Positions 23,732-30,144 of a stretch of 64,000 nt of DNA are shown in pieces. The position numbers and the translations under genes were made by a program. The notes beneath the pieces are model-generated. The model searched no databases and was not told where the DNA came from. It saw only the letters and a list, made by a program, of their open reading frames with translations. The stretch's first letter is position 1. Each line of letters starts with the position of its first letter. Origin of the DNA: Pelagibius litoralis (GTDB lineage Bacteria; Pseudomonadota; Alphaproteobacteria; Kiloniellales; DSM-21159); assembly GCA_029287455.1 (NCBI GenBank), contig JARFRB010000097.1, positions 1 through 64,000 on the forward strand, written 5' to 3'.

Positions 23732-23934
23732 TCTGAGCTTCCCGCTCGATCCGTTTTCCGCCCGCGCGCGGGATGTGCCGGAGCATAGGTGCAGCCATCG
23801 GTTTTCGCTAGCGCGCTCGGCGCATAACTGTATTGCCGCACTCCAAAAAGAAGTTCTTCTGTAACTCTTTCGCTTTATTTCGAAATGCTTACAGTGTAAC
23901 TTGCACCTCGAAAGACAAGCTGGAAGGGGTGCGG

Positions 23935-25086
23935 ATGCCGGCCCACGTGACGACATCCTGGCGGGATCGTGTGGAAGCACAGCCTTCGGACGACGGGTGC
24001 CTCTTGAAGCTGAAGGGCGTCTGGAAGCTGTCCGACGGGCTGATTTCTCCGTCCGAAGTGCTGTCCGGGGACCCGGTGCTGAAGGGCGCTGGGCATGTCA
24101 CGGTGGATGGCACGGAGATCGAGTCGTGGGATTCCGCGCTGGTCTGCTTCCTCGTAGACTTCAAGAAGGCGGGGGACGCCGCGGGCCGGCGGATTGACTT
24201 CTCCGCCCTGCCGGACGGCGCGCAGCGGCTGGTCAAGCTGGCCTTGGCCGTGCCGGAGCGCGAAGGCGCTAAGCAGTCGGGCGGCACCTCCGCGGGCTTT
24301 GTGGAAACGCTTGGCAAGCAGACGCTAGAGGCCTGGAAGGGTGCGGGCGAGATGATGGGCTTCCTTGGGGAGACCGTCATCGCCCTTGGCCAGGTACTTC
24401 GTGGTAAGGCAAGGTTTCGCAAGTCCGATATCCTTTTGGTCTTCGACGAATGCGGCCCGAAGGCTCTGCCGATCGTCACGCTAATCTCTTTTCTGGTGGG
24501 CATGATCCTGGCGTTCGTCGGGCTGGTGCAGTTGGAGCAGTTCGGCGCAGACATCTACGTGGCGAACCTCGTGGCGATCGCCATGGTGCGCGAGATGGGC
24601 GGTATGATGACGGGGATCATCATGGCCGGGCGCACCGGGGCGGCCTTCGCGGCACAGCTTGGCACCATGCAGGTCAACGACGAAATTGCGGCGTTCAGGA
24701 CCTTCTCCATCCCACCAATCGGCTTCCTGGTCTTGCCGCGCATGCTGGCCCTGATTATCGCCGTGCCCTTGCTGACCTGCTACGCCAACGTGGTGGGAAT
24801 GCTGGGCGGTTCCGCCGTCACGGGCGCGATGTCGGATGTATCCTTGCTTCAATATTACGTGCAGACCGTGGGCTCGGCCGACCTTGTCGATTGGGCTAGC
24901 GGGTTGTTCAAGGCCTCGGTCTACGGCGTCATCATCGCGGTTGCCGGTTGCATGCGGGGCATTCAGAGCGGCAAGAACGCCGCCGCGGTGGGTCAGGCCG
25001 CGACCTCGGCGGTGGTGCTGGCCATCGTCATGATCATTCTCGCCGAGGCCGTGCTGACCATCCTCTACCAGATCATGGGGATCTAG
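23935..25086 (+). CDS. STAS-MlaE fusion permease of a lipid-transport ABC system
   Basis: 383 residues. Residues 1 to about 105 look like a STAS/MlaB-type domain (strand LKLKGVWKL, strand VTVDGTEIESWDSALVCFLVD, helix to LALAV). The rest is an MlaE permease: LLVFDECGPKALPIVTLISFLVGMI, AMVREMGGMMTGIIMAGRTGAAFAAQLGTM and YVQTVGSADL are the family's core helices. The MlaE permease works with an ATPase and an MCE protein to move phospholipid between envelope membranes. In E. coli the STAS part is the separate protein MlaB; here it is fused. A GGAAGGGG site precedes the ATG at 23935. First gene of a four-gene operon. Confidence 0.93.
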   Translation: MPAHVTTSWRDRVEAQPSDDGCLLKLKGVWKLSDGLISPSEVLSGDPVLKGAGHVTVDGTEIESWDSALVCFLVDFKKAGDAAGRRIDFSALPDGAQRLVKLALAVPEREGAKQSGGTSAGFVETLGKQTLEAWKGAGEMMGFLGETVIALGQVLRGKARFRKSDILLVFDECGPKALPIVTLISFLVGMILAFVGLVQLEQFGADIYVANLVAIAMVREMGGMMTGIIMAGRTGAAFAAQLGTMQVNDEIAAFRTFSIPPIGFLVLPRMLALIIAVPLLTCYANVVGMLGGSAVTGAMSDVSLLQYYVQTVGSADLVDWASGLFKASVYGVIIAVAGCMRGIQSGKNAAAVGQAATSAVVLAIVMIILAEAVLTILYQIMGI

Positions 25087-25088
25087 CC

Positions 25089-25901
25089 ATGGCGGAAGCG
25101 GGCATGGTTCAGGGAACGCAAACGCCGCCTTCACCGGCTCCGACGACCGGCGCCCCGCCGCCCATCGTGGTTCAGGACGTGACAATGGCCTACGGCAGCT
25201 TCGTCGTGCAGCGGGACCTCAATTTCACGGTCGAGAAGGGCGATATCTTCATCATCATGGGGGGGAGCGGGTGTGGCAAGAGCACGGTGATACGCGCGCT
25301 CTTCGGCATGCAGCCGCCCGCCAAGGGCCGCGTTTTCGTGAACGGCGAAAGCCTATGGGAAGAGGACGAGGACGGCCGACAACGCGTGCTGCGCAACTCG
25401 GGCGTGGTGTTTCAAAGCGGTGGCATGTGGAGCACCATGACCCTGGCCGAGAACATCGGCTTGGTGCTGGAAGCCTATACCGATCTCACCCCCGCTGAAG
25501 CGCGGGACGTGGCGAGGTTGAAGCTCGCGTTGGTCGGGCTCAGCGGGTTTGAGGACTATTACCCTTCCGAGATTTCGGGCGGCATGCAGCGGCGGGCCGG
25601 TGTGGCGCGCGCGCTCTCCCTCGATCCCGAAATCCTGTTTCTTGACGAGCCTTCGGCGGGCCTGGACCCGATCTCCTCGCGCTTGCTGGATGATCTCATC
25701 ATTGAACTGCGTGACAGCCTGGGCGCCACCTTCGTCGTGGTCACCCACGAGTTGCCCAGCATTTTCACCATCGGCAACAATTCGGTGGTCTTGGACCCGG
25801 CCACCAAAACCCAGATCGCGACCGGGGATCCGAAGTGGCTGCGCGATCACAGCGAAAACCCTAGCGTCCGCGAGTTCCTCAATCGCGGCGAGAAAGGATA
25901 G
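25089..25901 (+). CDS. MlaF-like ABC ATPase of the lipid-transport system
   Basis: 270 residues from the ATG 2 nt after the permease stop. All ABC motifs are intact: Walker A GGSGCGKST (58-66), Q-loop VVFQSGG (107-113), signature SGGMQRR (163-169), Walker B ILFLDEPSAGLDP with catalytic Glu187, and H-loop His220 in VVTHELPSI. A 25-residue Pro/Thr-rich leader precedes the domain. It powers the MlaE-type permease. It is a useful intact comparison for the degenerate paralogue at 28.6-29.4 kb. Confidence 0.94.
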   Translation: MAEAGMVQGTQTPPSPAPTTGAPPPIVVQDVTMAYGSFVVQRDLNFTVEKGDIFIIMGGSGCGKSTVIRALFGMQPPAKGRVFVNGESLWEEDEDGRQRVLRNSGVVFQSGGMWSTMTLAENIGLVLEAYTDLTPAEARDVARLKLALVGLSGFEDYYPSEISGGMQRRAGVARALSLDPEILFLDEPSAGLDPISSRLLDDLIIELRDSLGATFVVVTHELPSIFTIGNNSVVLDPATKTQIATGDPKWLRDHSENPSVREFLNRGEKG

Positions 25902-25933
25902 TTAAAGCGGATGCGGCGCGGGGGCGGAGATCC

Positions 25934-26977
25934 ATGAAGAAGGCAAATCCAAAGGCGGTGGGCGGCTTCGTGCTGGGGGCGATCCTGCTCGCAATCGTAG
26001 TCATTCTGGTGTTTGGCGGCGGCAAGTTCTTCGAGGAGCGGGAGAAGTTCGTGGTCTACTTCCCCGGCTCTCTCCAAGGCTTGCGCGTTGGTGCGCCTGT
26101 CGAGATCAGCGGCGTTCAAGTTGGAACGGTCACCAACATTGCGATCCGGGTGAACAAGGATTTGAAGTTCACTTTCCCTGTGGTCTTCGAAACTGTGCGC
26201 GGGCAGGTAGAAGGCATCACCGATCAGATGATGGAGAAGGTGACCCTTGACGACCTCATCGCCAAGGGCTTGCGGGCGCAACTTGTGGCGACGAGCTTCG
26301 TCACCGGCCAGCAGAGCATCCAGCTGGTGTTTCTCCCCGATACGCCGGTGATCCTGACGGAGAACGACTATCCCTACGACCAAGTCCCCTCGCTTCCCTC
26401 GGCGGCGGAGAAGATCAAGGGCTCGTTGGAAGAGGCAGCGGAGCAGGCCAGCAAGGTCCTCGCTCGGATCAACGAATTCATGACCGACGAGAACCGCGAT
26501 AAGATCGAGAAGATGATCCTCGAAACCTCGGATGCGATCTCAGAGATTGGACCGACGCTGGAGTCCTTCCAGACTGCCGCGGAAACCATGAACGAGACGC
26601 TCAAGGACTTCCAGGAGGAAGGCGAGCCGCTCAGCGACTTCCTGACCTCCGGGGAGGCAACAATGAAGTCCTACAAAGCCTTGGCGGAGCGTGCGGACGG
26701 TATGCTGGTGGCGAACGAGGAGAACATCCAGCGGGCGATCGCGGGCATGATCAGCGCCGAGCAAAAGCTGTCCAGGCTTTCCGATACGGCGAACGCGATG
26801 ATCGAAGAGAATAGGCGGGGCATGCGGGAATTTTCCGAAAGCGGCCTGGCCGAGATTTCCAACATGGCGATCGACGCCCAGGGGGCGATCGAGCAGTTTC
26901 GGCGTGTGATGGAGGAAATGGAGCGGGACCCCGCCCGTTTCTTCCTTGGTGGACCCGGAACCTTGGAGGTGCAGTAA
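25934..26977 (+). CDS. MlaD/MCE-domain substrate-binding protein
   Basis: 347 residues. One N-terminal transmembrane helix (FVLGAILLAIVVILVF) is followed by a single MCE domain (residues about 40-120: FPGSLQGLRVGAPVEISGVQVGTV, LVATSFVTGQQSIQLVF) and a long helical region rich in Glu/Ala to the C-terminus, expected to form the hexameric periplasmic ring and tunnel seen in MCE proteins. It lies 32 nt after the ATPase and 1 nt before the lipoprotein gene. The extended helical tail is closer to PqiB/YebT or LetB-type or mycobacterial-like organisation than to short E. coli MlaD. Confidence 0.93.
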   Translation: MKKANPKAVGGFVLGAILLAIVVILVFGGGKFFEEREKFVVYFPGSLQGLRVGAPVEISGVQVGTVTNIAIRVNKDLKFTFPVVFETVRGQVEGITDQMMEKVTLDDLIAKGLRAQLVATSFVTGQQSIQLVFLPDTPVILTENDYPYDQVPSLPSAAEKIKGSLEEAAEQASKVLARINEFMTDENRDKIEKMILETSDAISEIGPTLESFQTAAETMNETLKDFQEEGEPLSDFLTSGEATMKSYKALAERADGMLVANEENIQRAIAGMISAEQKLSRLSDTANAMIEENRRGMREFSESGLAEISNMAIDAQGAIEQFRRVMEEMERDPARFFLGGPGTLEVQ

Positions 26978-26978
26978 G

Positions 26979-27641
26979 ATGGTTGATGCTCGGGGGAAGA
27001 CTGGCGTTGAGGGTCGGCGAAAGCTGCTACTCGGGGTGGCGGGACTGGCTGCGTTGGCTCTGCCGGCGTGCACGCTTCCAGGTGGCGGCCCGCCGCCTCG
27101 GCGCATCCGTCTCAACCCCGCAACGGAGTTTCCGCCGAATATGCCTTCGGTGGGATGGAAACTTGTCGTGGACGAGCCGAGCGCCACGCAGTCGATCAAC
27201 AACGCCCGAATCTCGATCTTTCGGACCGATGGCTCGATCGAGTATCTCTCGACGGGCCTATGGGCTAGCCGCGCGCCGGAAATGGTCATGGAGCTCCTGG
27301 TCGATTCCTTCAAGAACTCGAACAGGATCCTGGTGGTGGGCGACCGGCGCTCGCGGATCCGGCCGGACTTCGAGCTGGAGTCTCGCCTGACGGATTTCCA
27401 GGTGAATTCCACAGGGGCGTCCGGTTCCGGCACCGGCAACGCGGCCACCGTGAAGGTGGGACTGGACGTGAGCTTACTCCAACGTCCGCGGCGCACCGCG
27501 CTCGCCACGATGTTCTTCGAGTCGGAAGTTCAGATATCCGAGGAATCCCTGGACTCCGGCGTCGCGGCCTTCGATCGGGCCTTGCAGGATGTGATGGCGG
27601 ACGTGGTGGACTGGACACTTAGGACCGGCGCCGGGGCCTAA
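26979..27641 (+). CDS. ABC-type transport auxiliary lipoprotein (PqiC/LprB-like)
   Basis: 220 residues. A lipoprotein signal ends in lipobox LPAC near residue 27. The mature part contains WKLVVDEPSA, a YLSTGLWASRAPEMVMELLVDSF segment and a final helical VAAFDRALQDVMADVVDW, as in the ABC-type transport auxiliary lipoprotein family (PqiC-like) that tethers MCE systems to the outer membrane. Start ATG is 2 nt after the previous stop. It closes the operon; 50 bp separate it from the convergent SYLF gene. Confidence 0.9.
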   Translation: MVDARGKTGVEGRRKLLLGVAGLAALALPACTLPGGGPPPRRIRLNPATEFPPNMPSVGWKLVVDEPSATQSINNARISIFRTDGSIEYLSTGLWASRAPEMVMELLVDSFKNSNRILVVGDRRSRIRPDFELESRLTDFQVNSTGASGSGTGNAATVKVGLDVSLLQRPRRTALATMFFESEVQISEESLDSGVAAFDRALQDVMADVVDWTLRTGAGA

Positions 27642-27691: not shown

Positions 27692-28258
27692 CTAGTCCTC
27701 GAGCTTCGAGACCTTGGTGCCCTCTAGGCTGACGCCGGCCATCAGGCCTTGCTCCCCGAAATTAAAGGCCACCACGGGATTTTGGGCGGAGATGGTGTCG
27801 TAGGAGCCCGTCGCTCCTGACTGGATCACGGCGACTTGAGCGTCCACGCCGGCTTCCCAGCCGCTGGACTCCATGAACTTCTTGAGCGCTTCGTCCGTCA
27901 AGAACATGATCACCAGCGATCGGGTGGAGATGCCGAGCTGCAAACCGATCGAGCCCGAGGCACTGCTGTAGTAACCGGTCGTCTTTCCGCCGGTGCGCAG
28001 AACGCCTTCGCCGTACTCGCCCCCGACAATAATGCCCCCCTTGGTGATCTCCGGAAAGATGAGGATGCCCTTCGCGTTGGCGCCTAGATCCTTTGCCACC
28101 GTCGATTCGGCATAGAGCTTGTCGAGGGCTTCAGTGGATTTGACGTCGAGAGTCGCTCTCGAGTCGGCGGCGGCCGGCGAGGCCATGGGCGATTGCGCGA
28201 GCGTTAGAAGCGCGCCGAGCGCCAGGGCGGTTGTGATGCCAGAAAGAAGACGCAGCAT
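27692..28258 (-). CDS. Exported SYLF (Ysc84-type) lipid-binding protein
   Basis: 188 residues with signal peptide (cleavage near AAADS). The mature domain is a typical SYLF domain: AKGILIFPEITKGGIIVGGEYGEGVL, YYSSASGSIGLQLG, VIMFLTDEALKKF and AGVSLEGTKVSKL. SYLF proteins bind phosphoinositides or other lipids; bacterial periplasmic members have no settled role. Its position facing the Mla-like operon suggests a shared envelope-lipid function, which is an inference. Confidence 0.92.
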   Translation of the reverse strand: MLRLLSGITTALALGALLTLAQSPMASPAAADSRATLDVKSTEALDKLYAESTVAKDLGANAKGILIFPEITKGGIIVGGEYGEGVLRTGGKTTGYYSSASGSIGLQLGISTRSLVIMFLTDEALKKFMESSGWEAGVDAQVAVIQSGATGSYDTISAQNPVVAFNFGEQGLMAGVSLEGTKVSKLED

Positions 28259-28603: not shown

Positions 28604-29422
28604 CTAGGCCCGTGCGCGAAGCGCGATCGGGCCGTCTGATTTTCCGGACAGCAGCTGGTGCAGGCGCGGGTCGTCGCTTTGGCCGGCCTCGGCGGTGGTG
28701 CCGGACCAGACGATCCGCCCTTCGTGGAGCATGGCCAGGTCGTCGTAGTAGGCAAGGGCGGCGCGCATATCCCCGGTGACGGAAAGAACCGTCGTGCCGC
28801 CGCGCTGGACGGCCCTGCGGATCAAGTCGTTGGTCGCGTGGGTCATGATGGGATCCAGGCCGTCGGTCGGCGCGTCCAGCAGCAGAATGTCGGGATCGGT
28901 GGCGAAAGCCCGCGCCAAGGCCACGCGCTTTTGCATGCCGCCGGAGATCTCCACGGGGAAGCGGTCGGCGACGTCGGGGCGCAGCCCGAACATCGCCAAT
29001 TTCTCGATCGCCATGGCGCGGGCCTCGCTGCGGCCCATGCCATGGTTGTGAATCGGCCGGAAGGCCACGTTCTCCCAGACCGATAGGCTGTCGAAGAGCG
29101 CGTTGCGCTGGAACACCATCGAGATCTTGTCGGCGAGGCTTTCGCGCTCGGCCGAGGTCAAGCGCGCGGTATCCCGCCCTTCGATCTCGATTCGTCCCGC
29201 TTCAGGCTCGATCAACCCCGCCACGCACTTCATGAAGACCGTCTTGCCGGAGGACGATGGCCCTATCAGCACCGTGGAGCGGGCCCGCGAGACGCCCAAA
29301 TCGACGCCGGTCAGCACAGCCCGCCCGGCAAAGGAGACGTGAAGGCCGACGGAGCGGATCACGCTTTGCGTTGCTGTTTGGGTTTCTGGCGACAAAGTCG
29401 TTTCCGTTTCTTCCCGATTCAC
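28604..29422 (-). CDS. Degenerate MlaF-like ABC ATPase
   Basis: About 272 residues from GTG 29422 (start tentative; weak ribosome-binding site). The fold-defining motifs are kept: Walker A GPSSSGKT (54-61), Q-loop MVFQRNA (Gln106), signature SGGMQKR (160-166) and the D-loop GLDP. However Walker B reads LLLDAPTDG, so the catalytic Glu is Ala184, and the H-loop reads SVTGDM, so the switch His is Gly217. Both substitutions are clear single-codon readings (GCG and GGG). The protein probably binds ATP but should hydrolyse it poorly or not at all. No permease gene is adjacent. The closest relative in the window is the intact ATPase at 25.1 kb. Confidence 0.87.
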   Translation of the reverse strand: MNREETETTLSPETQTATQSVIRSVGLHVSFAGRAVLTGVDLGVSRARSTVLIGPSSSGKTVFMKCVAGLIEPEAGRIEIEGRDTARLTSAERESLADKISMVFQRNALFDSLSVWENVAFRPIHNHGMGRSEARAMAIEKLAMFGLRPDVADRFPVEISGGMQKRVALARAFATDPDILLLDAPTDGLDPIMTHATNDLIRRAVQRGGTTVLSVTGDMRAALAYYDDLAMLHEGRIVWSGTTAEAGQSDDPRLHQLLSGKSDGPIALRARA

Positions 29423-29640
29423 CCCTGGCGCGCGGACGCTACCCTGAGTCCGGGGGGTGTCCGCGCCTTGGGATCGACAAACTATCAGGTGCGGGAAATT
29501 GGGCAAGGCACCGAACACCCCAGACCGAACACCCCTGCAGGCTTGCACCTTGCGGGCAGTCCCGGCAATCTAGAGCGGGTTAAGGGCGCTCGAGCGTCCA
29601 CCCTTGGCCCATGGGGCGGTGCAGGCGAGGAGTCGATATC

Positions 29641-30144
29641 ATGACGAGCTTAGGTCCTTCGGTAGCCTTGGCGAGCTTCTGCCTTCTCATGGCCGGCTGC
29701 GCTCAGCTCCACGAAGTCGACGACTATCCGCCGATCGCCTGCGACCAGGAACCGGACCAGCGCGTCGAGGCAGATCCCTGGTTCGAAGGAAAGTGGCTGG
29801 CTGGCGAAGGGCCGCCCTTGATCAACTGGACCGGCTGCGATCGTTCGGCGGCGCAGCTGGCGAACAGCTATCTGGGTAGCGCCCAGCTCAGCAAGGCGGA
29901 CCTGTCGTCCGCGGATCTGAGCATGAGTTATTTGAGCGCCGCAAACCTGACCGGGGCTAATCTGAAGGGCGCGGATTTGCGGGGTGCCGTGATGCAGGCC
30001 GTTTTCCTGCGCGACGCGGACCTCAGCCAGGCCAATTTGGACGGGGCCGTCCTGTCCGGGACCTTCCTAGGGGCGGATTTCTCCGGCGCGACCTGGATCG
30101 ACGGTCGTCGCTGCGCGGAAGGGTCCGTGGGCGAGTGCCGGTAA
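29641..30144 (+). CDS. Pentapeptide-repeat lipoprotein
   Basis: 167 residues from ATG 29641. A lipoprotein signal ends LMAGC near residue 20. After a short acidic region, residues about 70-155 consist of roughly a dozen A(D/N)LxX pentapeptide repeats (SKADLSSADLSMSYL, ANLKGADLRGA, QANLDGAVL), which build a right-handed square beta-helix. The repeats begin after a Cys-Asp pair and end near a Cys pair, a possible disulfide. Function is unknown; many pentapeptide proteins mimic nucleic acids but a membrane-anchored one more likely acts in the envelope. Confidence 0.88.
   Translation: MTSLGPSVALASFCLLMAGCAQLHEVDDYPPIACDQEPDQRVEADPWFEGKWLAGEGPPLINWTGCDRSAAQLANSYLGSAQLSKADLSSADLSMSYLSAANLTGANLKGADLRGAVMQAVFLRDADLSQANLDGAVLSGTFLGADFSGATWIDGRRCAEGSVGECR

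Follow-up and report, generated by a model that had tools for sequence, protein, structure and literature searches.

An orphan MlaF-type ABC protein of Pelagibius litoralis without the catalytic glutamate and switch histidine

Introduction

The direction of Mla transport and the regulation of the complex are debated. The ATPase of the system, MlaF, is represented in MlaFEDB structures from E. coli (6XGY, 6XBD), P. aeruginosa (7CH8) and A. baumannii (7D06). An LSGGM signature in place of LSGGQ was described as an MlaF feature, and the terminal helix of E. coli MlaF, with Tyr261, Leu265 and Leu266, docks on the neighboring MlaF-MlaB (PMC7367683). Neither the K47A nor the E170Q variant of E. coli MlaF complements in vivo (PMC7367683). 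An MlaF-type ATPase described in Alphaproteobacteria is MpcF of the chimeric Mla-Pqi system of Brucella, which is encoded in a four-gene operon together with its own permease (PMC12436622).

Each ATP site of an ABC dimer combines Walker A, Walker B, the Q-loop and the H-loop of one subunit with the signature motif of the other (PMC7756269). In transporters with a degenerate site the Walker B Glu is commonly replaced by Asp and the H-loop is often changed as well; in the human examples the signature motif of the partner is always altered (PMC7756269). ABC subunits with a degenerate site are well known. In the open-licence literature that we searched, neither a conserved pseudo-MlaF nor any other inactive MlaF paralogue was reported.

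Here we describe an MlaF-type gene without an adjoining permease, referred to as the orphan, in a 64,000-nucleotide stretch of P. litoralis DNA (the window). The encoded protein resembles MlaF of MlaFEDB in fold over the whole domain, and shares with it the [LI]SGGM signature, the Q-loop, the D-loop and a C-terminal region that reaches to about residue 257 of the E. coli protein. Unlike these MlaF proteins, it lacks both the catalytic Glu and the switch His, its Walker A glycines are altered, its gene is not part of an mlaE/mlaD operon, and its chain stops short of the helix that terminates the E. coli extension. With the degenerate-site nucleotide-binding domains of TAP, ABCC1 and Pdr5 the orphan has in common a lost Walker B Glu, a changed H-loop and a site under selection (PMC7756269). 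In those transporters the domain usually lies on the same polypeptide as the membrane domain and the partner signature is altered, whereas the orphan gene is unlinked to a permease gene and the signature of its candidate partner is mostly intact.

Results

Identity of the gene product

The orphan gene occupies positions 28604..29422 of the minus strand, and translation from the GTG at 29422 to the stop at 28604 gives a protein of 272 amino acids. Conservation is absent from the first 19 residues, which were also modeled with low confidence, so the true start may be internal, at a TTG near 29395 or a GTG near 29361. Scans for promoters and terminators around the gene gave nothing above chance. 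The protein matched the Pfam family ABC_tran, and its best NCBIfam match was MlaF (PRK11831), with a score that was the highest obtained yet far under the curated equivalog cut-off of that model. Its signature reads ISGGM and is of the MlaF type, not of the LSGGQ type. In sequence and fold the orphan thus belongs with the MlaF-type ABC ATPases, as translation, both family databases, its orthologues and an AlphaFold model agree.

Motifs of the ATP site

The motifs of the ATP site are all encoded on the minus strand. Walker A is GPSSSGKT (residues 54–61, 29240..29263), followed by the Q-loop MVFQ, of which VFQ forms residues 103–105; the segment from there to residue 125, which includes the region expected to receive the coupling helix of the permease, is NALFDSLSVWENVAFRPIHN (29048..29116). 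The signature is EISGGMQKR, with SGGMQKR at residues 160–166 (28925..28945). Walker B, ILLLDAPTDGLDP, continues into the D-loop as LDAPTDGLDPI (residues 182–192, 28847..28879), and the H-loop lies in SVTGDM (residues 214–219, 28766..28783). An active ATPase carries the catalytic Glu and the switch His. The orphan has Ala184 at the MlaF position of the former, within LLLDAP, and Gly217 at that of the latter, within VTGDM, while the D-loop GLDP is preserved. Translation of the minus strand therefore bears out the original prediction of an MlaF-type ATPase with precisely these two replacements. Walker A had been called intact, which holds for the P-loop pattern GxxxxGKT including its Lys; two glycines of the usual MlaF form GGSGSGKS have been replaced. 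Replacement of the Walker B Glu and/or the H-loop His with retention of the ATP-binding motifs is the pattern of a degenerate site, and the orphan shows it.

Loss and retention were counted in 16 distinct orphan sequences, using as reference the 87 columns that are near-invariant in canonical MlaF. Several of these columns were lost: His217 was kept in none of the 16 and Glu184 in five, and of the Walker A glycines Gly55 was kept in none and Gly57 in two. The P-loop Lys, the Q-loop Gln, SGGM, GLDP and an LFDS..W.N..F motif were kept in every orphan. The losses thus hit the protein's own ATP site, and the residues that act on the site of a partner (SGGM, GLDP) are invariant. Such a pattern fits a subunit that does not burn ATP itself and yet would complete the site of its partner.

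Predicted structure

The AlphaFold2 model of the orphan, computed from a 37-row alignment, had a pLDDT of 91.2 and a pTM of 0.86, with low confidence for the first 20 residues. E. coli MlaF (6xgy) ranked first in a Foldseek search with this model. With the structural aligner VIA-align, MlaF chains reached Z scores of 29–33, tied with other nucleotide-binding domains such as those of MetN and PhnK. Residues 18–272 of the orphan matched the MlaF structures, and the aligned part ended at residue 257–258 of E. coli MlaF, before the terminal helix of the extension through which E. coli MlaF subunits form their handshake. Contact with MlaB of the E. coli type can therefore not be assumed. The missing helix seems to be characteristic of the class and not a loss specific to the orphan, because canonical alphaproteobacterial MlaF proteins are of similar length; a GPI motif and the region of residues 250–268 are also common to the orphan and these canonical proteins.

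Orthologues and selection

Within the family of P. litoralis the orphan was present in 5 of 12 genomes, distributed over three genera. With a profile of five sequences, built from these same family orphans, they scored 483–525 bits; the matches that followed, at 302 bits or below, were all to canonical MlaF. The four orthologues from the other genomes are 56–59% identical to the orphan. Alignment with relatives, the check proposed with the original prediction, gave LDAPTDGLDP in each of the five proteins, hence Ala184 throughout, and an H-loop without His in all of them, with Gly in the orphan of the window, Thr in three and Ala in one; no orthologue with Glu and His was found. Three different codons encode Ala184 among the five genes, which means that the amino acid was kept while the DNA changed.

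Pairs of orphan genes that lack both residues gave dN/dS values of about 0.11–0.14. Canonical MlaF genes gave 0.06–0.10 in those of the same genome pairs for which the comparison was made; the values were obtained by the NG86 method, and the larger distances are near saturation. The orphan gene is under purifying selection, and it almost certainly encodes a conserved functional protein and is not a product of decay. The view in the original prediction that the substitutions are not random decay is upheld by this selection, by the orthologues that lack both residues and by a wider subfamily without the His.

Distribution and phylogeny

A search of 385 sampled alphaproteobacterial genomes with a profile of 14 orphan proteins showed that the orphan belongs to a patchy subfamily, present in nine of them. 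Every match above the 385-bit threshold that separated these nine had an H-loop without His, and the matches read just below it, at 371 bits or less, had both Glu and His. Among 398 genomes sampled from the phylum no further orphan member was added at the threshold used, and one more canonical sequence scored 374.7 bits. The class matches together with members from the order of P. litoralis make up the 16 distinct orphans. Position 184 is occupied in them by Asp (6), Ala (5) or Glu (5), and position 217 by Ser (8), Gly (3), Thr (3), Ala (1) or Asn (1); the signature is [LI]SGGM in all 16. Because the distribution is patchy, normal Mla function does not need the orphan, and since five orphans keep Glu, not all members need be inactive.

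Among 186 distinct MlaF-like sequences, 170 had both Glu and His, and the 16 without His were all orphans. Eleven of these also lacked Glu, and none of the 186 had lost Glu alone, which suggests that the residues disappeared stepwise, His first and Glu later, rather than in one paired event. The original prediction had the two residues lost together; both are absent from the family orthologues, and the pattern of the subfamily points to successive losses.

For a maximum-likelihood tree, the columns of Walker A, Walker B and the H-loop were left out of the alignment. All 33 canonical MlaF proteins fell on one side of a branch with support 98/99, and 14 of the 16 orphans formed a clade with support 99/96; the remaining two, both from one genome (G035), were unresolved near the base. 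Within the family of P. litoralis the branching order was the same for the orphan and the canonical genes, as vertical inheritance predicts. A scan of genome contigs with the single protein returned mostly MlaF relatives from Bacteroidota and no new orphan; these relatives have Glu and His and served only as controls. No match to the orphan with at least 60% identity was present in plasmid records. Three of these records were opened, and the two that carry annotation were alr-permease-ATPase loci.

Genomic context

The original prediction that no permease gene adjoins the orphan is true in the window, and no permease was found beside it at any independent locus with readable neighbors. An MlaE gene accompanied by its own ATPase gene is located on the opposite strand at a distance of 3.5 kb. 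This permease, with an N-terminal STAS-like domain (23929..25086, plus strand), is paired with an intact ATPase that has Glu and His (25095..25901, plus strand). The intact ATPase had been noted as a paralogue 3 kb from the orphan with both hydrolysis residues, and these are present; at about 29% identity, it is a distant paralogue and neither the relevant parent nor the predicted partner. The two genes belong to a four-gene operon (23833–27641) which further encodes a long PqiB-like MCE protein and an auxiliary lipoprotein, in the layout of the Brucella Mla-Pqi (Mpc) system (PMC12436622). MpcF and the orphan are both MlaF-type ATPases of Alphaproteobacteria, and it is the intact ATPase of the window, not the orphan, whose setting matches that of MpcF. 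A second set of this operon occurs on contig C13 of the same genome, and the copy in the window is divergent.

Within the genome, the paralogue most similar to the orphan, with 44% identity, is a canonical MlaF encoded in an alr-mlaE-mlaF-radA locus on contig C88. Proteins from such loci are the closest canonical relatives of the orphan in general (about 43–50% identity), with a similar length and the same coupling-groove region. They differ from it in having Glu and His, in a permease gene directly upstream and in their separate branch of the tree. The gene order of the canonical locus, dnaB-alr-permease-ATPase, is that of Azospirillum, and alr-permease-ATPase is that of Paracoccus; in Azospirillum lipoferum 4B the canonical relative WP_014250104.1 adjoins dnaB-alr-permease.

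The neighbors of the orphan vary by lineage and include CoA-transferase, MnmC-like and methylenetetrahydrofolate reductase genes. A conserved neighbor that would tie the gene to Mla was looked for across the loci and none was found. In the window, the next gene downstream on the same strand (27692–28258) encodes a SYLF-domain (Ysc84-like) lipoprotein of the BPSL1445 family, a pairing not seen at other orphan loci. Divergent from the orphan lies a gene for a pentapeptide-repeat protein with a signal- or lipoprotein-like N-terminus (29611–30144); in Caulobacter, a pentapeptide protein that is secreted is reported to affect antibiotic sensitivity via the outer membrane (PMC12864828). Three of the five family genomes have, immediately downstream of the orphan, a gene for a small secreted protein without a Pfam family (L123 9034–9486, L125 10379–10831, L124 10540–10974), and the homologue of this protein in P. 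litoralis is on a different contig (C62, L280), not beside the orphan. In two genomes of family f133 the orphan shares four bases with the end of a CoA-transferase family III gene (L234 8022–10009, L235 7697–9813), which suggests co-expression of the two genes there.

Candidate partner

P. litoralis has three MlaE genes in total, each with an adjoining ATPase gene. A spare, unpaired MlaE was searched for in 22 genomes; each has one to three MlaE genes, and the number is no higher in orphan carriers than in relatives that have no orphan. The only MlaE of genome G346, which is 99% complete, adjoins a canonical MlaF; one MlaD and the orphan are also present, so any use of MlaE by the orphan must be shared in that organism.

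From general knowledge of ABC transporters, the region up to residue 125 is expected to form the coupling-helix groove. In this region the orphans are 66% identical to alr-locus MlaF and 42% identical to the ATPases of MCE operons; in the C-terminal region the values are 47% and 19%. Due to these resemblances, and to the single MlaE of G346, MlaE of the alr locus, and not the MCE operon of the window, appears to offer the best candidate partner.

In the candidate partner MlaF of P. litoralis itself SGGM is intact, and a change occurs just after the motif (GGMRKQ). The signature is likewise intact in nearly all hosts of the orphan and is clearly altered only in G035. There, the canonical MlaF has LSVGM (L131 9828–10607), the sole altered signature among the Mla-type canonical sequences examined; the same genome carries two orphan ATPases without His.

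Discussion

We propose, at about an even chance, that the orphan is a pseudo-nucleotide-binding subunit that joins MlaE and MlaF of the alr locus as an asymmetric or regulatory partner. The protein would still clamp ATP and be unable to hydrolyze it, and it would work in trans by replacing one MlaF on the shared MlaE. In such a heterodimer its intact signature and D-loop would complete the site at which the normal MlaF hydrolyzes ATP, and the orphan's own site would stay a non-hydrolyzing clamp. A facultative hetero-form that tunes phospholipid transport would be more likely than an obligatory one because the signature of the normal MlaF is intact in almost all host genomes; a modulator or brake used only at times would fit better than an obligate heterodimer. 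A pure orphan homodimer should not drive transport, as K47A and E170Q do not complement in E. coli. The regulatory or structural role of a pseudo-ATPase that the original prediction suggested for the protein is supported, as a role that we infer from sequence comparison. More tentatively, and with some doubt, certain Alphaproteobacteria may have an asymmetric Mla in which one normal MlaF and one pseudo-MlaF encoded elsewhere sit on the same MlaE.

An unlikely alternative is that the orphan acts purely as a brake, a homodimer or mixed dimer that locks MlaE in an ATP-bound, non-hydrolyzing state, so that its expression would switch Mla off. Loss of both hydrolysis residues with retention of the ATP-clamp motifs would give such a locked state, the failure of K47A and E170Q in vivo (PMC7367683) agrees with it, and the intact signature of canonical MlaF in nearly all hosts is expected if the normal homodimer is the working form. 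However, there is no sign that the orphan protein is present only under certain conditions, and the Glu kept in five relatives is unexpected for a pure brake.

The orphan might instead have left Mla and serve as an ATP-dependent clamp or scaffold for another, perhaps soluble, partner, which we regard as improbable. No permease adjoins the gene, and its neighbors differ in each lineage. ABC proteins without a membrane partner do exist, such as PhnK on C-P lyase, and PhnK also matches the orphan model. The groove and C-terminal regions are nevertheless near those of alr-locus MlaF, which would be unexpected for a protein freed from MlaE.

There is very little to recommend the orphan as a spare ATPase of the Mpc-like MCE operon 3 kb away: the genes are physically close in the window, but the operon already has an intact ATPase of its own, the orphan is unlike MCE-operon ATPases in its groove and C-terminus, and orthologues in other genomes are not beside an MCE operon. 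That the gene is a decaying duplicate without function, as the absence of the two catalytic residues could indicate, is hardly credible: over three genera the reading frames are open and under purifying selection, the Glu position has retained one and the same substitution, and the subfamily is class-wide.

That some bacteria have long kept a natural MlaF without the hydrolysis residues beside a working one points to a subunit that is unlinked and either regulatory or asymmetric. If annotation relies on the ABC family alone, such proteins are labeled as working ATPases. The orphan also offers a direct route to studying the part that a single ATP site plays in an MCE transporter. If the proposed asymmetric Mla exists, it would be an MCE transporter with one working site, unlike the symmetric MlaF2 complexes solved so far.
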